This document shows, one piece after another, positions 1,418 to 22,240 of a stretch of 64,000 nucleotides of DNA. Each line of letters opens with the position of its first letter. The stretch's first letter is position 1. Both the position numbers and the translations under genes were made by a program. This stretch comes from Prosthecobacter sp. SYSU 5D2 (GTDB lineage Bacteria; Verrucomicrobiota; Verrucomicrobiia; Verrucomicrobiales; Verrucomicrobiaceae), in NCBI RefSeq assembly GCF_039655865.1, contig NZ_JBBYXL010000003.1, positions 1 to 64,000 of the forward strand, written 5' to 3'. The notes under the pieces are model-generated. The model saw only the letters and a list, made by a program, of their open reading frames with translations. It did not search any database and was not told the DNA's origin.

Positions 1418-3607
<2,190 letters not shown>

Positions 3608-3716
3608 CGTAACAGAAGAGGATATACGGGACCGGGCGCGGTTTCGTCAAAGCGTATTTCAGAAAGGATCGGTTAAGTTTATGAAAATTATAGTTTGCTC
3701 TTGAAATAAAGTGGTT

Positions 3717-8863: not shown

Positions 8864-8917
8864 GTTTTTGGCTGCTGGAAAAGGAGCGTTGGATTCGTTT
8901 ACATGTCAGTGACTGTC

Positions 8918-9646
8918 ATGAAAACCATCCTGCCCCTGCTTCTCGCCTCTCTCATTTTCAGCGCCAATGCGGCGGATGAGGGTTTTGTTTCCTTGTTCAA
9001 CGGGAAGGACCTGACGCACTGGACGGTGCCGGAGGGTGACAATGGTCACTGGAAGGTGTTGGACGGTGTGATTGACTATGATGCTTGCAGCGAAGCACCG
9101 GCGAAGGACAAGAACCTCTGGACGGTGAAGGAGTATGGGGACTTCACGCTGAAGATTGACTGGCGGCTGAAGGAGACGACGGGGCTTTATCCGATGCCGG
9201 TGGTGCTGCCGGATGGGACGCACAAGCTGGATGATGAGGGCAAGGAGATCAAAATCCCGACGCCAAATGCGGACTCCGGCATCTACCTGCGCGGGGTGGG
9301 CAAATCGCAGATTAACATCTGGTGCTGGCCGATCGGTTCAGGGGAAGTGTATGGCTACCGGATGGACAAGACGATGCCACCAGAAGTGCGTGCGGGGGTG
9401 ACGCCGAAGGTGAGGGCGGACAAGCCGGTCGGTGAGTGGAACACCTTTGAGATCACGATGAAGGGCGACCGGCTGACGGTCGTGCTGAACGGACAGACGG
9501 TGATTGACCAGGCGCAGTTGCCCGGTGTTCCTGCCCAAGGGAAGCTGGGCTTGCAGCATCACGGTGGCAAGAACGCGACGACCGGGGAGCTTTCACCAGC
9601 ATCGAGTTTGATCCAGTTTCGGAATATTTCGATTCGGGAATATTGA
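8918..9646 (+). CDS. Secreted DUF1080 (3-keto-disaccharide hydrolase-like) protein
   Basis: This 242-residue protein begins with a signal peptide (MKTILPLLLASLIFSANAAD) and then the DUF1080 core typical of Verrucomicrobia and Planctomycetes: FVSLFNGKDLTHWTV, GHWKVLDGVIDYD, FTLKIDWRLKE, NADSGIYLRGVGKSQINIW, and WNTFEITMKGDRLTVVLNGQ. The fold is concanavalin-like. Some members hydrolyse 3-keto-glycosides, and others may only bind sugar. It is one of four such proteins in the window. A start at 8903 would add five residues. It has its own position between the FKBP gene and a convergent enzyme gene, with a REP-like pair downstream. Confidence 0.9.
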   Translation: MKTILPLLLASLIFSANAADEGFVSLFNGKDLTHWTVPEGDNGHWKVLDGVIDYDACSEAPAKDKNLWTVKEYGDFTLKIDWRLKETTGLYPMPVVLPDGTHKLDDEGKEIKIPTPNADSGIYLRGVGKSQINIWCWPIGSGEVYGYRMDKTMPPEVRAGVTPKVRADKPVGEWNTFEITMKGDRLTVVLNGQTVIDQAQLPGVPAQGKLGLQHHGGKNATTGELSPASSLIQFRNISIREY

Positions 9647-9709
9647 TTAGGCGGCTGCACCGCGATGAAATGAAGGCGTGCCGGAGTGCTTGCGGTCCTT
9701 TAAAATGAT

Positions 9710-9834
9710 GCGGGCACTCCTGCCTGCAGAGCTAGGGCCTGTTAAGCTACGGGAGCAGATGGAAGCGCCCTCTTTGGCCTGACAGGAACACGGGGGCAGG
9801 TAACCTTCGAAGAATCGCGGGCAGGAGTGCCCGC
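9710..9834. repeat. Pair of REP-like palindromes in inverted orientation
   Basis: An 18-base unit at 9710-9727 and its reverse complement at 9817-9834 differ at one base. Each unit is itself a small hairpin: GCGGGCA, a four-base loop, then TGCCCGC (TGCCTGC in the left copy). The pair flanks about 90 bases between the convergent DUF1080 gene and the HAD/glycosidase gene. This is the arrangement of a BIME-type repetitive extragenic palindrome; transcription-end protection or folding is possible. Confidence 0.75.
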
Positions 9835-9845
9835 AGTACTTTTAG

Positions 9846-11918
9846 TCAGGCTTCGTCGAGGCCAACTTCGTGGCAGGCGAGGATGAATTCGGCGGCGGAC
9901 CAGGCCTGGTAGGCTTTGCCCATGGGGTTGCCGGTGCGGGCGTGGGCCCATTCGTTGAATTCCCACTCGGCCTGGACACCGCGCTGGTTGATGCGGGCGA
10001 GCTTGAGAAGCTCCTGGAGGGCCAGGGGGCGCATGCCGAGACGGGTGATGTATTGCACCCACTTTGCACCGATGAAGGGCCAGATGCCGCCGTTGTGGTA
10101 ATGGTGGGGGAGGTTGAGCAAATTGACGGCGTAGTAGGGCTTCCAGTCGGGATCGCCGGGGGCCACCACAGGGTAGAGATTGGTGACGGGGAAAGGTTCA
10201 TTAACCCCGACACCCCACATGAAACGGAAGGAATGGCGTGCGCGCTCGACATCCAAAACGTTGAAGAGGAAGGCGAGGAGGTTGCCATAGACATCGCAGC
10301 GCCAGTTGAAGTCAAAGGGGGTGACCTGGGCGAGGAGGTAAGCGGTATCGCCAAGGCTGAACTGCATGTCCGCAAAGGTCCGGGTGCTGTTGGGACTGAG
10401 GGCGGTGGTGGGCCAGAAACGCTGGAGGATGGCCATCTTGATACTCTGCGACCAGCGGAGGTATTCACCGGCGCGTTTGCCCTGGCCAAGCGCTTCAAGC
10501 AGGCGGCCAAAGGCGATGTTGGCGCGGTACCATATGACCTGGTCAACGAGGACGTTATACGAGCGCCCAAAGAGATCCGTCCAGTCGCCCGCTTCGGGAA
10601 TTTCAATCAGGGCATCGTAATTGGAATCATGCGCAGTGAGCCAGTCCATGGCCTTCTGGAGGGCGGGGAGATGCTCGCGAATGAAGGAGGTCTCTTTGGT
10701 GACGCGGAAGTATTCATACGCGGCGATGATGACCCAGAGGCCGCCATCAATGGAGCAGATGCCGCCGACGCCGGAGTAATCTGGTACGCCGTCTTCAATG
10801 CGTACATTGGCCGGGATCTGACCATGAGGGGAGGCGTGACTGAGAAGAGTGCGGAGGGTCTCGCGCTGACAGTCGCGGATGGCAACGTCATCCAGGCTGA
10901 GGGAGGCAATGACGGTGATCGCACCGTCGCGGGCCCAGACGCTGCGGTAGTTGGCATCGGTGCCGCGGGTCTCGTTGTCTTCCAGCGAACAGGCGGAGAA
11001 ACCCAGAGGGGTGATGTTCTTTTTGAGAGCCTCCACGGCTTTGCGCTGGGCGAGCTGGAGATAGGCGCGGTCCTCCGGGGTAAGGGCCTCAGGTGAGGCC
11101 TCATTGAGGATCTGACGCATCTCCGGCTCGAAGTGTTTTTCCCGGGGATCTTCGGCGGCTTCAAGACTGCAAACGGAAGGAACGATGCCGTAGTGAAGGA
11201 GACCCTCCAGGACACCATCTGCGCAGATACTTTGGGCACGGTAGCAGGGAAGTCCGAGCGTGGCCTCCACCAGCTCAGGCTGCGAGTTTTCCACCACGAT
11301 GCCCCGGACGCCGGGGATCTGGAACATGGCGCTATCATTACCCGAGTCTCCAGCAACGAGGGCTTCGTAGCTGGGGATCTGGAGGTGCTTGAGTAGCCAT
11401 TCCAGCGCATTGCCTTTGTTAGCGTATTTGGGAAGGACGTCGAGATCGCGGCTGCTGGAATACACGACCATGGTTTCGAGTCCGGCCTCGGAAAGTGCGC
11501 TTTCGAGGGCGGTGATCTGCTCAGGCGTGGCCTGATGGAGATACCAGCTTGATTTGAAGGCATTTTGATACTGGCTGGGCTGTTTGACGGCACTGGTCAT
11601 GCTGAGGACGACTTGCTCAGCCCGGGCACGGTCCCAGTTTTCGCTCATGATCTCGGCGAACTCGCGCATGACGGCGCGGCGGTGCATGTCATAGATCATG
11701 GTGCCGACACCGCAGATAAGGTACTGAGGGGTGGGGAGATCCGAACGTTGGATGGTGCGGAGGGCGTCCTGGAGGAGGCGTCCGGTGTTATAAACGAGGG
11801 TGGGGCGTCGGTCTTCAGGCATGGTTTCCCAGACCTGCTTGAAAAGCATGGTGGAGTCCGGTTTGCCGAGGAGGGTGCCATCAAGGTCGGAGCAGAGGAG
11901 CTTGAGATTGGGGCTCAT
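9846..11918 (-). CDS. Fusion of HAD sugar-phosphatase and glycosidase-like (alpha/alpha)6 domain
   Basis: The 690-residue product joins two enzymes. Residues 1-250 form a HAD-IIB phosphatase like sucrose-phosphate or mannosylfructose-phosphate phosphatase, with motif I CSDLDGTLLG, motif II YNTGR, the lysine of NKGNALEWLL and motif IV GDSGNDSAM. Residues from about 265 look like an amylo-alpha-1,6-glucosidase/GH100-type helical barrel: NYRSVWARDGAITVIAS, CSIDGGLWVIIAAYEYF, AGDWTDLFGRSYNVL and HHYHNGGIWPFIGAKW. The enzyme therefore could both finish synthesis of a sugar and hydrolyse it. It follows the GT4 synthase gene by 53 bases on the same strand, as expected for a synthase-phosphatase pair. 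Substrate is not decided by the sequence. No signal peptide is present, so it is cytoplasmic. Confidence 0.85.
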   Translation of the reverse strand: MSPNLKLLCSDLDGTLLGKPDSTMLFKQVWETMPEDRRPTLVYNTGRLLQDALRTIQRSDLPTPQYLICGVGTMIYDMHRRAVMREFAEIMSENWDRARAEQVVLSMTSAVKQPSQYQNAFKSSWYLHQATPEQITALESALSEAGLETMVVYSSSRDLDVLPKYANKGNALEWLLKHLQIPSYEALVAGDSGNDSAMFQIPGVRGIVVENSQPELVEATLGLPCYRAQSICADGVLEGLLHYGIVPSVCSLEAAEDPREKHFEPEMRQILNEASPEALTPEDRAYLQLAQRKAVEALKKNITPLGFSACSLEDNETRGTDANYRSVWARDGAITVIASLSLDDVAIRDCQRETLRTLLSHASPHGQIPANVRIEDGVPDYSGVGGICSIDGGLWVIIAAYEYFRVTKETSFIREHLPALQKAMDWLTAHDSNYDALIEIPEAGDWTDLFGRSYNVLVDQVIWYRANIAFGRLLEALGQGKRAGEYLRWSQSIKMAILQRFWPTTALSPNSTRTFADMQFSLGDTAYLLAQVTPFDFNWRCDVYGNLLAFLFNVLDVERARHSFRFMWGVGVNEPFPVTNLYPVVAPGDPDWKPYYAVNLLNLPHHYHNGGIWPFIGAKWVQYITRLGMRPLALQELLKLARINQRGVQAEWEFNEWAHARTGNPMGKAYQAWSAAEFILACHEVGLDEA

Positions 11919-11971
11919 GGAGGAATGAGGGAACGAAAACTAATGACGAATTTCGAATGACTGGAATTTGA

Positions 11972-13342
11972 TCAAATATCCACGCTTTGGCGCCAGATAG
12001 AACTCACGTCGGGGGTTTCGGCGGCATCCACGCCGGTGTGGAGACGGTCTTCGACGGCACGGAGGAGTTGCTGCGCGATGCCGCTCCAGGCAAAGAGGGC
12101 ACGCACGCGAAGACTGCCCTGCTGGCTGATGCGGTTGCGAAGACGCTGATATTTGAGAGCCTGGAGAAGGCAGATGCCGAATTCCTCAATATCTTCGGTA
12201 TCGGTGTAGAGAGCATGGACACCGAAATCCAGAGCACGATACAGGCCACCGCGAGTAGTGACGACAGTGGGGGTACCGGAGGCGAGGGCCTCAATGGCGG
12301 TCATGCCAAAAGGCTCATAGCGGCTGGACAGGGCAAAGACATCGGCGGCGCGATAATAATCGGCCATCTGTTCATCCGGGAGGGAATCGGTGATGAGGAC
12401 TTTATTCTGGAGGTTGTGCTCCACAACAAGCTCTTGCAGCTCTTCGAGCATGCGGGAATCCCCAGGATCTGAGGACTGCATGCTGACGGCGAGGCGGAGC
12501 TTGGCCTCCGGGATGCGGGTGGCGACGATGGCGAAGGCGCGGATGAGGAGGTCGAACCCTTTGTTACGGGCGAGGCGGCCGATGGAGGCGATGACAGGCC
12601 CATGATAATTCATTTCAGTTCGTATGCCCTGACGGCTGGCCTCACTGACCGGGAAGAAGCGGTTGTCATCGTAGCCGGGGGGGATCATGCGGATCTTGGC
12701 CGGGGCGACTCCGTAGTCTGAAGCGATGAGGTCCGACTGCGGCGGGGTGGTGGCGATGACCATGTCACACTCCTGGAAGAGGCGCTGCTCATGACGGACA
12801 CGAGCGGTGAAATTAAACTGATCTTCGAGCTTTTCCGTATCCTCCGGGGCGGCGTCTTCCATCTGGCTCTTTTTCCAGGAGCCGAGGGAGTGCGGGGTGT
12901 GCAGGTGAGGGATGTTAAGCGCATTGGAAAGGGACTGTCCGGCGAGGCCGGCATCCCAGTAATGACTGTTGATGAAGTAATAAGAGAGGTTCTGTTTTTT
13001 GATCAACCGGAGGGCATTTTCGACCCACTCGGGGATGTTTTTATAAAGCTGCTCCTTCGGGATGAACTCGTTGCTGCCGCAGGGGACACGGAGGATGGTG
13101 ACGTTTTCATCCACCATCTCAGTCTCAGGCTGGTTGTCAAAACGGCGGGTCCAGATGTCCACTTTGTAGCCTAAGCGGGCTAGCTGCTTGGAGAGCTCGA
13201 TGACAAAGACGACCTGGCCGCCGGTATCGGGTGCGCCGAGCGGAGGCTGGGCGGCGACGTAACCGTGGGTGGAGATCATGGCGATGCGGCGACGCATGCG
13301 CCTGCGGGCGGTGGGGGGAAGTTTCGCTGGAGGGGTGCTCAT
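11972..13342 (-). CDS. GT4 glycosyltransferase, mannosylfructose/sucrose-phosphate synthase-like
   Basis: This 456-residue retaining glycosyltransferase resembles Agrobacterium mannosylfructose-phosphate synthase (MfpsA) and the related sucrose-phosphate synthases. The N-terminal acceptor half carries IAMISTHGYVAAQPPLG, DTGGQVVFVIELSKQL and INSHYWDAGLAG, followed by HTPHSLGSWKKSQM. The nucleotide-sugar half has IPPGYDDNRFFPVSE, IGRLARNKGFDLLIRAF and the catalytic E-x7-E region SRYEPFGMTAIEALASGTP. The likely reaction is transfer of mannose or glucose from a nucleotide sugar to fructose 6-phosphate to make a compatible solute. The adjacent HAD phosphatase supports this. Choosing mannose over glucose rests on remembered similarity only. 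Confidence 0.87.
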   Translation of the reverse strand: MSTPPAKLPPTARRRMRRRIAMISTHGYVAAQPPLGAPDTGGQVVFVIELSKQLARLGYKVDIWTRRFDNQPETEMVDENVTILRVPCGSNEFIPKEQLYKNIPEWVENALRLIKKQNLSYYFINSHYWDAGLAGQSLSNALNIPHLHTPHSLGSWKKSQMEDAAPEDTEKLEDQFNFTARVRHEQRLFQECDMVIATTPPQSDLIASDYGVAPAKIRMIPPGYDDNRFFPVSEASRQGIRTEMNYHGPVIASIGRLARNKGFDLLIRAFAIVATRIPEAKLRLAVSMQSSDPGDSRMLEELQELVVEHNLQNKVLITDSLPDEQMADYYRAADVFALSSRYEPFGMTAIEALASGTPTVVTTRGGLYRALDFGVHALYTDTEDIEEFGICLLQALKYQRLRNRISQQGSLRVRALFAWSGIAQQLLRAVEDRLHTGVDAAETPDVSSIWRQSVDI

Positions 13343-13588: not shown

Positions 13589-14329
13589 TCAGGGAGCGGC
13601 TGTGGCAGGCTGAATGAGGGCAGCTTTGTTTTTAGCCCAGTCTGGATTTGGCTGTGCTTGCCAAACCTGGAGATTCCGTACGCTGCCTTCGGTGGCCATG
13701 ACGAACATGAGGCTGTGCTTGTCCGTGGCGATAAGAGGATGACTGCCGGTGAGGCTTTGGCCATTGACGGTGCCGACCATCTCATCTCCAAGGATTTCAA
13801 AAACGACGGTATGCCATTCGTCAAGCTTGAGGGGCGTTTTGAGAGCGCCTAGCGGGACGGATTTATCAGGCCCGCCGTGGTCGTTGTCATCCTTGCTGAT
13901 ACGGAAACCGGTTTCATTGAGATGGATGCTGCAGACGTAGTCTTTGGCATCCACGGTGCGGATGCTGATGCTGCGGCTTTTGCGGCCATTCATCGGCACG
14001 TTGTTCATGCGCACCTGGCATTGGATGATGACGTCTTTGAAAAGGAATCCGTAAGAGGCCGTGGCAGGATGCTGGACCTCCGGAGTTTCGCGACCGGTGA
14101 ATACACCGTCCTCGACCGCCCACTTGCCGCCACGGGGGACAGCATTCCAGCGCCAACCGGAGAAGCCGCTGGCGAAGCCTTTGGAGATGCCATCAAAAGG
14201 CTTTAAGGGGGCGGAAAAGTCCTGGGTGACGAGGAGCTTTCCACGCTTTGTCATGAGGGTGGGCTCCTCTGCGGCAGACAGAGAGAGAACACCCAGGATG
14301 GTGAGGGAAAGGAGCAGCCAGACTTTCAT
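13589..14329 (-). CDS. Secreted concanavalin-fold protein, DUF1080-like
   Basis: The 246-residue protein has a signal peptide (MKVWLLLSLTILGVLSLSAAEE) and a beta-sandwich pattern like DUF1080/LamG proteins: GKWAVEDGVFTGRE, FKDVIIQCQVRMNN, ISIRTVDAKDYVCSIHL, LDEWHTVVFEILGDEMVGTVNGQSL and a final VRNLQVWQ. It probably binds or acts on extracellular carbohydrate, but no catalytic residue set can be named. It lies 9 bases after the end of the esterase gene, so the two are probably cotranscribed. About 245 bases without a gene separate it from the glycosyltransferase start; nothing was recognised there apart from room for a promoter. Confidence 0.75.
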   Translation of the reverse strand: MKVWLLLSLTILGVLSLSAAEEPTLMTKRGKLLVTQDFSAPLKPFDGISKGFASGFSGWRWNAVPRGGKWAVEDGVFTGRETPEVQHPATASYGFLFKDVIIQCQVRMNNVPMNGRKSRSISIRTVDAKDYVCSIHLNETGFRISKDDNDHGGPDKSVPLGALKTPLKLDEWHTVVFEILGDEMVGTVNGQSLTGSHPLIATDKHSLMFVMATEGSVRNLQVWQAQPNPDWAKNKAALIQPATAAP

Positions 14330-15268: not shown

Positions 15269-16171
15269 TCACGCACGGGGGTGGGCAGAGTTATACACCT
15301 CCTTCATGCGCTGGGTGGAAACATGAGTGTAAATCTGGGTGGTGCTGAGGCTGGCGTGACCGAGCAGTTCCTGCACGCTGCGAAGATCCGCCCCGTTATT
15401 CAAGAGGTGTGTGGCGAAGCTGTGGCGGAGCTTGTGCGGGGTGACGTGGATGGGCAGGCCGGACTTTTTCCAGTATTTGTCCACGACATCGGCAATGGCC
15501 TGGTTGGTGATGCGTTTGCGCAGCTTGCTGAGGAAGAGGGGGCCGCTGTGGACACCTGCTTTGACGCGATAACGCTGGATGGCCTCCATGGCGGGAGTGC
15601 CGATGGGGAGCAGGCGCTCTTTGCGGCCCTTGCCAATGACACGGACGGTATCGCTGTAAGAATCTACGTCCTCGACATTGATGCTGGCGAGCTCACTGAG
15701 GCGCATGCCGGTGGAGTAGAAAAGCTCCAGGATGGCTGAATCACGCTCACGGGCCCAAAGCGGTGCAGCGCGCTCTTTTTCCAGCTTCATGGGCAGATCC
15801 AGCATGTCGGTGATCTGCGTGAGGGTTAGTACGACAGGCAGTTTTTTTTCCTGCTTGGGAAGCTGGACATCCAGGAGGGGATTTTGTTGCAGCCCTTGGC
15901 GGCGGGTGAGCCATTTGAAAAAGGAACGCAGGGCGGAGAAGTGCAGGCGGATGGTGGCGCGGGCCATCTCGCGCTTCATCTGGCCAAAGAGATACTTCCG
16001 GAAATCGTCGGCGGTGAGGGCTTCCCAGGTGGTGAATTTTTTCTGCGCAGCGCGGAAGGTGTTTAGAGCGTGCGCATAGTTTTCCAGGGTGCGCGGGGAC
16101 GAGCGCCGCTCCACCTCCATGAACTGGAGGAAGGCCTCGCCAAGGGAATCGGGCGGCAGCGGGGTGGACAT
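15269..16171 (-). CDS. xerC: Tyrosine recombinase XerC/XerD type
   Basis: The 300-residue protein is a Xer recombinase, which resolves chromosome dimers at dif during cell division. The SAM-like N-terminal domain includes FLQFMEVERRSSPRTLENYAHALNT. The catalytic domain has the first arginine in YSTGMRLSELASI (about residue 165), HKLRHSFATHLLNNGADLRSVQELLGHASL, and the nucleophile in TTQIYTHVS. Length is normal for the family. ATG 16171 was chosen because it begins the conserved region; an in-frame extension to 16210 would overlap the next gene. It is surrounded by secreted hydrolase genes rather than division genes. No dif site was recognised in the window. Confidence 0.93.
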   Translation of the reverse strand: MSTPLPPDSLGEAFLQFMEVERRSSPRTLENYAHALNTFRAAQKKFTTWEALTADDFRKYLFGQMKREMARATIRLHFSALRSFFKWLTRRQGLQQNPLLDVQLPKQEKKLPVVLTLTQITDMLDLPMKLEKERAAPLWARERDSAILELFYSTGMRLSELASINVEDVDSYSDTVRVIGKGRKERLLPIGTPAMEAIQRYRVKAGVHSGPLFLSKLRKRITNQAIADVVDKYWKKSGLPIHVTPHKLRHSFATHLLNNGADLRSVQELLGHASLSTTQIYTHVSTQRMKEVYNSAHPRA

Positions 16172-16191
16172 GATTTCCCCGCTAGATAGCG

Positions 16192-17481
16192 CTACTGGCC
16201 ACGGATGCAATAGACGGCCTGCTCACTGCGCAGAATGAGCCTGTCACCGACCACAGCGGGTGTGGCGTGGAACTGGGTATCATCTCCGGCGATGACATTG
16301 TGGGCGAGTTTTTCAAAGGTGGGTTTGGCGGCAATGACATAAGTACCGCCACGACGGGAGACGCAGTAGAGGCGGTCGCCAATGAGGACGGGGGAGGCAT
16401 AGAAGGGCTTGCCACGGCCACGGCCTCCGCCGGATTCGATGGCGCGCTCACGATAGACATCCTTACCAGTGGCAGCTTCCATGCAAAGGGCAAATCCCTG
16501 GTCATTGATGACATACAGGTGCCCATTGTGAAGGATGGGGGTGGGGACATAGGAACTGCTTTTGCTGGTCCAGAGAATGTGGCTGGAAGTAACGTCACCC
16601 TGGCCACCGAGCTTGATGGCGGCACTGCCCTGCGTGGGGTAACCGCCATAGAGATAAAAGCGGTCTTTGTCCTGAATGAGGCAGGGGGAGATGTTACCGG
16701 GGAGATTATGCGTGGCGAACCAGCGCATCTTGCCCGTGTCCGGGTTCAGGCCCCAGACTTCCTCCGCGATGGCGAAGACAAGGTCGGTGCGGCCGCCGGA
16801 TTCCATGAGTGAGGGGGTGCCATAGGCGAGATCAATTTTGTCACCACCGGCTTTCCAGAGCTGCTTACCGGTCTTTTTATCCAGGGCAAAGAGGGCTTTG
16901 CTTTCATCGGTGGCATTGAAGATGACGGTATCCTTGTAAAGGATAGGGCTTCCGCCGGATCCCCAACGGCGACTGCCGGAGCCGGTGCCGAGGGACGTCC
17001 GCCAAATCTGCTTACCCTCCATATCGAAGGCATAGGCACCGCTTTTGCCAAAAAAGGCATAGATGCGCTCTCCATCACTGACAGGGGTGTGGGTGGCATA
17101 ACCGTGCTCGGTGATAAAACCCTCAAACGGGTCCTCACTAGCGGCTGAGGGAACGACGGTCTCCCAGAGCTTTTTGCCATCGGCGAGGTTCAGACAAATC
17201 AAGTGACGTTGAAGCTTCGTGGGGTCTTTGGCAGATTCTTTATCCCCATAGCCGGACCAGCAGGTGAAGATGACCTTTGCTCCGATGACGATGGGGCTGG
17301 ACGAGCCGGGTCCGGGAGCCTGGAATTTCCAGGCGAGGTTCTCTTTTTCTGACCAGGTGAGCGGAATGTAGGCTTCCTTCACCACCGCTGCGCCGGTGGG
17401 GCCGAGAAAGCCGGGCCAGTCGGCAGCAAGGATGGGAGCGGACAACGTGAGGGCGGTGGCCAAAAAAAGCGGGAGTTTCAT
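16192..17481 (-). CDS. Secreted PQQ-like beta-propeller protein
   Basis: The 429-residue product has a signal peptide (MKLPLFLATALTLSAPILA) followed by ADWPGFLGPTG, the usual opening of planctomycete/verrucomicrobial PQQ-like propellers. Repeated blades contain the tryptophan-docking pattern, for example LICLNLADGKKLWETVV, ALDKKTGKQLWKAGG, GLNPDTGKMRWFATH and CMEAATGKDVYRER. The fold is that of BamB and quinoprotein dehydrogenases, but nothing shows a PQQ cofactor or an enzymatic activity. ATG 17481 fits the signal peptide; the longer frame to 17568 overlaps the next gene and was rejected. Confidence 0.88.
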   Translation of the reverse strand: MKLPLFLATALTLSAPILAADWPGFLGPTGAAVVKEAYIPLTWSEKENLAWKFQAPGPGSSSPIVIGAKVIFTCWSGYGDKESAKDPTKLQRHLICLNLADGKKLWETVVPSAASEDPFEGFITEHGYATHTPVSDGERIYAFFGKSGAYAFDMEGKQIWRTSLGTGSGSRRWGSGGSPILYKDTVIFNATDESKALFALDKKTGKQLWKAGGDKIDLAYGTPSLMESGGRTDLVFAIAEEVWGLNPDTGKMRWFATHNLPGNISPCLIQDKDRFYLYGGYPTQGSAAIKLGGQGDVTSSHILWTSKSSSYVPTPILHNGHLYVINDQGFALCMEAATGKDVYRERAIESGGGRGRGKPFYASPVLIGDRLYCVSRRGGTYVIAAKPTFEKLAHNVIAGDDTQFHATPAVVGDRLILRSEQAVYCIRGQ

Positions 17482-21838: not shown

Positions 21839-22240
21839 TCAGTCCTCCCCGCTCACTTTCCCTCGGTTCTTTTTTACGCCAGAGCGATTTTTTTTGGTTT
21901 TGAGTATGCGGTTCTTTAAGCCGCGCGGGCGGGGGCGGTTTTGACGGCGGGTTTTCTCGCGCTCGTTTTGCAGGGCCATCCTGGCTTCTTCCCGTGCGGA
22001 TTCCAGGCGGTCGCAGAGTTCCATGCGGGCCCAGTAGCGGTTCATGACCTGGGATCGCTCGCGCTGGCAGCGGACTTCCAGACCGCTGGGGACATGGCGA
22101 AGAACAACGGTGGAGGAGGTTTTGTTGATCTTCTGCCCACCGGGGCCGCTGCCGCGCACAAACTCCTCCTGCAAGTCTTCCTCGCGAACGCGGAGCTTGG
22201 TCAGGCGTTTTTGAAGAACTTCTTCATTTGGCAGCGACAT
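21839..22240 (-). CDS. Peptide chain release factor-like (GGQ) protein
   Basis: This 133-residue protein contains the release-factor catalytic loop GSGPGGQKINKTSSTVVLRH and little else. An N-terminal helix precedes it and a long basic tail follows (NRPRPRGLKNRILKTKKNRSG). No codon-recognition domain is present, as in ArfB and the C12orf65-like family, which hydrolyse peptidyl-tRNA on stalled ribosomes and use a basic tail to reach into the mRNA channel. A rescue role is therefore likely. ATG 22240 (MSLPNEEVLQKRL) is the family-like start. The divergent sdhC begins 193 bases away; that gap holds the promoters and nothing else I could recognise. Confidence 0.87.
   Translation of the reverse strand: MSLPNEEVLQKRLTKLRVREEDLQEEFVRGSGPGGQKINKTSSTVVLRHVPSGLEVRCQRERSQVMNRYWARMELCDRLESAREEARMALQNEREKTRRQNRPRPRGLKNRILKTKKNRSGVKKNRGKVSGED

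Follow-up and report, generated by a model that had tools for sequence, protein, structure and literature searches.

In Synechococcus PCC 7002, sucrose synthesis, phosphatase, fructokinase and breakdown functions lie in one unit, the spsA-sppA-frkA-amsA operon, as excerpts of two papers describe (PMC11046441; PMC9971976). A review of cyanobacterial sucrose metabolism covers, in its accessible part, synthases with a glucosyltransferase domain (GTD) and with a GTD joined to a phosphohydrolase domain (GTD-PHD) (PMC4390843), and the portion at hand of a paper on trehalose evolution shows synthase-phosphatase fusions, none of them with a trehalase (PMC1769515). Here we analysed a 64,000-nucleotide stretch of Prosthecobacter sp. 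SYSU 5D2 DNA (contig NZ_JBBYXL010000003.1, positions 1 to 64,000; hereafter the window), in which a gene for a family 4 glycosyltransferase (GT4) resembling sucrose-phosphate synthase (SPS) is followed, in the same direction and after 53 bp, by one gene that joins a sucrose-phosphate phosphatase (SPP) domain to a glycoside hydrolase (GH) domain resembling family GH100. Judging from sequence comparison and predicted structure, these two genes probably form a compact sucrose module, in which the GT4 and the SPP domain would make sucrose and the GH100-like domain would split it. An earlier note, made by a model from the letters of the window, had listed both open reading frames (ORFs), and both are present at exactly the ends it gave, on the minus strand. 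The pair and its parts are as follows.

11972-13342, minus strand: gene for the GT4 glycosyltransferase, SPS-like, 456 amino acids
9846-11918, minus strand: fused gene, SPP domain plus GH100-like glycosidase domain, 690 amino acids in one open frame
11187-11906, minus strand: SPP domain (S6PP, HAD-IIB), residues 5-244
11064-11186, minus strand: linker, residues 245-285, variable, modelled with low confidence
9849-11063, minus strand: GH100-like (alpha/alpha)6 glycosidase domain, residues 286-690
10575-10577, minus strand: Asp448 (in GDWTD), aligned with the catalytic Asp188 of InvA
9951-9953, minus strand: Glu656 (in EFNEW), aligned with the catalytic Glu414 of InvA

The glycosidase half is best explained as a putative sucrose hydrolase resembling the alkaline/neutral invertases (GH100). 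The Pfam family Glyco_hydro_100 (PF12899) matches residues 524-681 with 50.5 bits, above its gathering cut-off of 23.6; GDE_C (residues 327-678), MGH1-like_GH (residues 462-673) and a rhamnosidase-6H profile also match the fused chain. For the fold we used an AlphaFold2 (AF2) model of residues 262-690, based on an alignment (A2) of 44 relatives (28 fused and 16 separate; L004, L014 and L015 were excluded as partial), which has a mean predicted local distance difference test score (pLDDT) of 90.4. A full-length AF2 model falls below a pLDDT of 50 at residues 443-453 (including Asp448), 519-539, 577-583 and 592-613, and its VIA ranking left GH100 tied with the 'Glycosidase' series 5z3a-e; the GH-only model was used instead. 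In a Foldseek search of the PDB with the GH-only model, rows 1-28 are all GH100 invertases (E-values of 1.9e-16 to 2.0e-14), followed by GH116 at 6.6e-10. VIA-align superposes the same model on InvA with a Z of 38.7 (root-mean-square deviation, rmsd, 3.0; 381 residues aligned; 22% identity), and the best entry outside GH100 reaches a Z of 35.3. A profile search with the GH domain points the same way: matches to invertases span the full domain and reach about 1e-24 to 1e-22 (InvA at 1.3e-24 over positions 39-422), and the next family follows at 7e-10.

Asp448 and Glu656 are invariant in all 44 rows of A2, fused and separate sequences alike; we take the GH100 counterpart of Asp448 to be the general acid and that of Glu656 the base. 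The positions of R330-D331 (within NYRSVWARDG, residues 323-332 of the fused protein), W446 and the H-N-G-G-x-W motif are likewise invariant in the 44 rows. An excerpt of the InvA literature gives Asp188 and Glu414 as the catalytic residues of that enzyme (PMC6995568), and by alignment with InvA we infer a catalytic role for Asp448 in the window protein. The earlier note had allowed that the C-terminal half might only bind the sugar if it lacked catalytic acids. Both acids are kept throughout, and we rejected mere sugar binding as the leading reading on account of this invariant pair.

The phosphatase half matches S6PP (PF05116) over residues 5-244 with 223.2 bits (5.3e-66), above the gathering cut-off of 20.3. 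HAD phosphatases are recognised by the motifs DxD, T/S-G-R, K and GDxGND, and the window protein has them as D11-L-D13, N44-T-G-R, K168-G169 (in NKGN) and G190-D-S-G-N-D. Synechocystis SPP (1s2o) matches the domain at 4e-34 by sequence and with a Z of 28.6 by fold (rmsd 3.4, 239 residues aligned, 34% identity). Across the fused rows of a second alignment (A1), D-x-D is present in 23 of 24 and GDxGND in all 24. Both domains are under purifying selection: in the three pairs compared, with dS (synonymous substitutions per site) near saturation, the ratio dN/dS of the GH domain is 0.05-0.09 and is in each pair the lowest of the three segments, narrowly so in one. The linker, by comparison, has a dN/dS above that of either domain in all three pairs, and in the full-length model its block means of pLDDT are 55-70 at residues 251-280.

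The best PDB sequence match of the GT4 protein is the SPS of T. elongatus (TeSPS; 6kih, 5.8e-51), in a practical tie with MshA (3c48, 2.8e-50). Excerpts of the TeSPS paper state that fructose is bound by Ala48 and Gln51 and the phosphate of sucrose 6-phosphate by Arg105 and Arg178, and that all activity is gone without His158 or Glu331 (PMC7264703). Counterparts of the TeSPS residues Q51, H158, R178, R249 and E331 are present in the aligned window protein, which differs at A48 (Thr), R105 (Lys) and R253 (Asn). In 34 of 35 GT4 rows (29 of the window type and 5 bidomain synthases) the residues of Gln51, Arg178, His158 and Glu331 recur unchanged, the 35th, L040, being unreadable there. Across these rows Thr or Asn stands in place of Ala48, Lys replaces Arg105 and, mostly, Asn replaces Arg253, and the MshA chain 3c48 has Met at the position of Gln51. 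A GT4 synthase-like gene followed by a HAD phosphatase joined to a helical-barrel glycosidase, as the earlier note had described the locus, is thus borne out by the Pfam domains and the predicted (alpha/alpha)6 fold, and its proposal of a synthase-phosphatase pair for a non-reducing disaccharide draws support from domains and residues.

The same domain order recurs in other genomes, a check that the earlier note had proposed: with the window included, 29 fusion loci were found, in records titled with several phyla. Scanning species genomes yielded 18 loci, of which 10 match nearly the whole fused protein (54-84% identity) and 8 the GH part alone. The 10 fusion records, all metagenome-assembled, carry the titles Prosthecobacter, Akkermansia, Verrucomicrobiales, Verrucomicrobiaceae, Verrucomicrobiota or Verrucomicrobia (two), Lentisphaerae, Sumerlaeota, Rhodothermia and Saprospiraceae, the last four with one record each. 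Of 194 genomes sampled from the phylum of the window, Verrucomicrobiota, 18 have the fusion (its own included), 1 has GH alone and 15 have SPP alone (E 1e-20). The 149 genomes around a Planctomycetota record include one with the fusion, one with GH (60% identity) and a separate SPP (the record itself), three with GH alone (32-33%) and five with SPP alone. Around the Rhodothermia record, 198 genomes gave the fusion in the record itself, a distant GH alone in 6 and SPP alone in 11, and among 199 genomes around a Bacillota record GH was found in that record only. Presence is patchy even close to the window, with one of three genomes of its own genus giving no match. Each phylum outside Verrucomicrobiota is represented by one record, and mis-binning is possible case by case; against it weighs that L010 and L011 group together (support 99/96) and have in common a distinctive gene order in which GT4 comes last. 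Fused and separate GH sequences may form two clades: a single change suffices on the tree, but the split has a support of 47/86, appears in 44% of 200 bootstrap trees and lies where long branches meet. In all 28 other fusion loci the GH part is closer in identity to the window than the SPP part is. L003 comes from a record titled Akkermansia muciniphila, probably in error: its protein shares 77% identity with that of the window and clusters with the window and Prosthecobacter sequences.

The gene context was compared by tblastn in the 29 fusion loci (the window, L002-L011, L052-L068 and L070), and counts were taken from tblastn since picking the longest ORF as neighbour went wrong in GC-rich loci, where it took up antisense frames. 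A GT4 gene lies within 2 kb of the fused gene in 27 of the 29 loci, first in 24 of them and last in L010, L011 and L068. Of the two without it, L008 starts at a contig end, and L053 lacks one across some 4.9 kb of upstream and 7 kb of downstream sequence. In L060 (8277-9983) GT4 and the fused gene are separated by a gene for a sodium:solute symporter, encoded on the opposite strand. A PfkB kinase gene follows within 0.25 kb downstream in eight loci (L007, L053, L056, L057, L060, L061, L062 and L070), where the query was the gene of L070, itself one of the eight, and where L004 and L058 offer less than 1 kb of downstream sequence. L070 (5308-9069, the same locus as L034), from a genome of the Planctomycetota sample, has GT4, SPP, SPP-GH and kinase in this order, the last two overlapping. 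The same functions also occur unjoined: in L069 SPP, GT4 and GH follow one another, in this order, as three genes; in L012 the three are likewise individual genes and lie within 6 kb; and in L013 GH and GT4 adjoin, with an SPP match on another contig. When some genomes fuse a set of genes that others keep apart, this is a usual sign of one pathway. Separately, a genome that also has the fusion (G143) contains a second GT4-SPP pair without a GH domain (L071). Farther afield, two distant stand-alone GH homologues (L072 and L073; 24-30% identity, from the phylum of the Rhodothermia record) lie between a major facilitator superfamily (MFS) gene and a PfkB kinase gene, and the only NCBIfam match of these MFS genes at 1e-15 is a sucrose/proton symporter model; beside another such homologue (L077) the kinase is of the uridine-kinase type.

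As to the sugar, the earlier note had likened GT4 to a mannosylfructose/sucrose-phosphate synthase and suggested a compatible solute or a new sugar; sucrose now appears likelier than mannosylfructose or a new sugar, with no mannosylfructose enzyme among the references compared, because the GH domain is closest to GH100 invertases and because in L068, a locus of the window's own family, the fusion adjoins a bidomain synthase that passes the SPS model TIGR02472 (597 bits against a cut-off of 576). We regard this synthase as the strongest clue to the sugar. By eye, its own phosphatase half lacks DxD and GDxGND, and with these motifs lost the fused SPP would be the working phosphatase.

For the window pair we infer substrates, both activities and any regulation as follows. 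With a nucleotide-activated hexose as donor (most likely UDP-glucose or ADP-glucose) and fructose 6-phosphate as acceptor, GT4 would form sucrose 6-phosphate, from which the N-terminal SPP domain would remove the phosphate to give sucrose. The C-terminal GH100-like domain, with Asp448 and Glu656 as its catalytic pair, would hydrolyse sucrose to glucose and fructose, and in some relatives the adjoining PfkB sugar kinase could return fructose to fructose 6-phosphate. With the sucrose-forming and sucrose-removing steps on one chain, the sucrose pool, serving as compatible solute or carbon store, could be set by regulating two opposed activities. A planctomycete, Rhodopirellula baltica, accumulates sucrose under salt stress according to an excerpt (PMC3694870), and for a verrucomicrobial haloalkaliphile the part of the paper at hand names glycine betaine as the sole osmolyte possibly made (PMC13274419), which speaks neither for nor against sucrose. 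"Make and break", in the earlier note's phrase, is the most economical reading of an SPP-glycosidase fusion. Its placing of synthesis and breakdown in a single chain holds for the last synthetic step, which is joined to the breakdown step, and fails for the synthase, which is a neighbouring gene. A more far-reaching possibility, which we consider doubtful and offer tentatively, is a single-chain sucrose homeostat, in which the opposed SPP and GH100-like activities would be switched by ionic strength, pH or sucrose/sucrose 6-phosphate, and which would have spread over several phyla as a substitute for SPP and invertase under separate regulation.

Several findings weigh against a sucrose module. 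On the glycosidase side, the Pfam GH100 match spans only positions 274-429 of the 435 in the profile, identity to GH100 structures is about 20%, and the ten-residue block of the model that contains Asp448 has a mean pLDDT of 67, its least sure part. By a count made by hand from printed alignments, the position of GH100 Arg430 (InvB numbering), a residue close to the catalytic Glu, lies in a gap of three residues; with no counterpart for this residue, the domain is therefore named GH100-like and not a GH100 member. The SPP domain scores 163.4 bits against TIGR01485, the NCBIfam equivalog for plant and cyanobacterial SPP, below the cut-off of 183.65, and is filed by sequence in the S6PP family, not as that equivalog. 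In L008 (86-814) the fused SPP motifs are damaged, DLNGT and LTGW replacing DxD and NTGR; the GH half of L008 retains its catalytic pair, and this genome has another SPP match. GT4 scores higher against TIGR03449, the model for the D-inositol-3-phosphate glycosyltransferase MshA (229.7 bits, cut-off 462.5), than against TIGR02472 (195.1 bits, cut-off 576), staying below both cut-offs, so that between SPS-like and MshA-like scores its sequence alone does not decide the donor sugar or product. Among the neighbours, tblastn over the sequence available for each locus found no such PfkB kinase in 21 of the 29 fusion loci, the window among them. Fructokinase is the best model for the kinases of L034 (80.8 bits) and L061 (83.6 bits), under its cut-off of 450 and with hardly any lead over other PfkB models including 5-dehydro-2-deoxygluconokinase, and for the kinases of L072 and L073 that last model comes first and fructokinase second. 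The symporter model reaches 102.5 and 99.4 bits in L072 and L073 against a cut-off of 511. Bacillota GH homologues (35-42% identity) lie in other sugar clusters, in L016 with a SIS-domain protein and a NAGidase-family glycosidase. Finally, both halves working at once would waste activated sugar, which makes the control of the two activities the main question.

Of the other explanations, the one that survives best, though in our view unlikely, keeps the same logic for another disaccharide: GT4 would use GDP-mannose or another donor with fructose 6-phosphate, and the resulting mannosylfructose or new glycosyl-fructose would be the sugar that the GH domain hydrolyses. Such a product would fit a GT4 that stays under every curated SPS cut-off, a fold that also resembles the GH63 mannosylglycerate hydrolase (4wvb, Z 34.3, with a PF22422 match) and Bacillota GH relatives that adjoin other sugar genes. 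It sits poorly with GH100 invertases as both the closest structures and the closest profile matches, with a TIGR02472-level SPS in the place of GT4 in L068, and with the symporter-like and PfkB neighbours of the distant homologues, weak as their scores are. We give still less credence to a glucosidase acting on another cell sugar, such as a short alpha-glucan or glucosylglycerate, and fused to SPP for co-expression only. The GH100, GDE_C and MGH1-like_GH profiles all match, at 1.7e-13, 4.3e-11 and 8.4e-9, and glucosylglycerate hydrolases appear among the later Foldseek rows, but GH100 is well ahead in fold and profile, and the company of GT4 and SPP, fused or separate, together with the PfkB kinase in eight loci, speaks against this reading. 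Least probable of these is a GH domain that serves as a sucrose sensor or regulatory domain for the SPP half or the GT4 partner and is no hydrolase in the cell. The cost of a futile cycle would favour it, as would the bidomainal SPS whose phosphohydrolase domains, in the excerpt available, lack the SPP residues and have an unknown role (PMC9971976); yet the catalytic pair, R330-D331, W446 and H-N-G-G-x-W are invariant in 44 rows, the GH domain has the lowest dN/dS of the three segments, and stand-alone GH homologues adjoin transporter and kinase genes. Chance or misassembly was rejected, with one open frame in many independent genomes (no stop interrupts the frame in 28 of the 29 fusion loci; L004, matched only at residues 4-614 up to a contig end, has an in-frame stop early in the GH part), and in the lineage of the window itself both chance and a sequencing artefact are excluded.

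The sucrose module remains the preferred reading. In its own genome the fused protein is present in a single copy, no GH100 match was found besides it, and the other S6PP matches are two partial ones, of 26.6 and 23.2 bits against a cut-off of 20.3, both within a single 277-aa frame of another contig (C7). Rfam and tRNA scans gave nothing at the locus, no sigma-70-like promoter was found there, and terminator counts are at the level of shuffled sequence. Directly behind the fused gene (9702-9842) lies an inverted repeat resembling repetitive extragenic palindromic (REP) elements, whose 15-base core occurs 14 times in the genome, the two at the locus included, and not once when read backwards as a control. 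ORFs with a 3-keto-disaccharide-hydrolase domain flank the locus on both sides (8903-9646, 2.4e-35; 13589-14329, 7.6e-5, below the family cut-off). Elsewhere in the window, a thiamine pyrophosphate (TPP) riboswitch (RF00059, 64.3 bits) lies on the minus strand at 3506-3615, just upstream of a minus-strand ORF (1418-3499) that is presumably a thiamine gene, the ORF at 15269-16210 is by eye tyrosine-recombinase-like, and a change of sign in GC skew with a peak of cumulative skew near 22000 suggests a replication boundary.

The earlier note did not recall the fusion as a described system, and among the matches listed in the open-licence PMC full text, judged by titles and abstract openings, we found no report of an SPP-glycosidase fusion. 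The enzyme families themselves are known; what is new is the fusion of the final step of synthesis with the step of breakdown. To our knowledge, GH100 is otherwise known from cyanobacteria and plants, and the window GH domain would add a diverged GH100-like branch. With the GH100 invertases (Anabaena InvA and InvB, Arabidopsis CINV1) it has in common the predicted fold, a whole-domain profile match, the catalytic Asp and Glu and, with InvA, the HNGGxW motif; it differs in its identity of about 20%, the missing Arg430, the SPP joined on and the linked synthase gene. The mannosylglycerate and glucosylglycerate hydrolases (4wvb, 5ohc), which break down compatible solutes, belong to the same fold class, with a lower Z for 4wvb (34.3 against 38.7 for InvA) and a lower profile score for 5ohc (3.3e-7). 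The phosphatase domain, with its HAD motifs, is like that of Synechocystis SPP (1s2o). In the modular joining of sucrose-making domains the fusion resembles the bidomainal SPS (GTD-PHD), as described in part of the review cited above (PMC4390843), but there the phosphatase is joined to the synthase, whereas in the window protein it is joined to a putative breakdown enzyme. If the sucrose reading is true, synthesis of sucrose and its dedicated breakdown would be placed together in Verrucomicrobiota and allied groups, and two opposed activities on one chain would offer a direct test bed for the control of a compatible-solute pool. In arrangement, the PCC 7002 operon is a close analogue; its breakdown enzyme, in the excerpts available, is an amylosucrase (GH13) and a separate protein, whereas in the window a GH100-like domain would take this place on the phosphatase chain.

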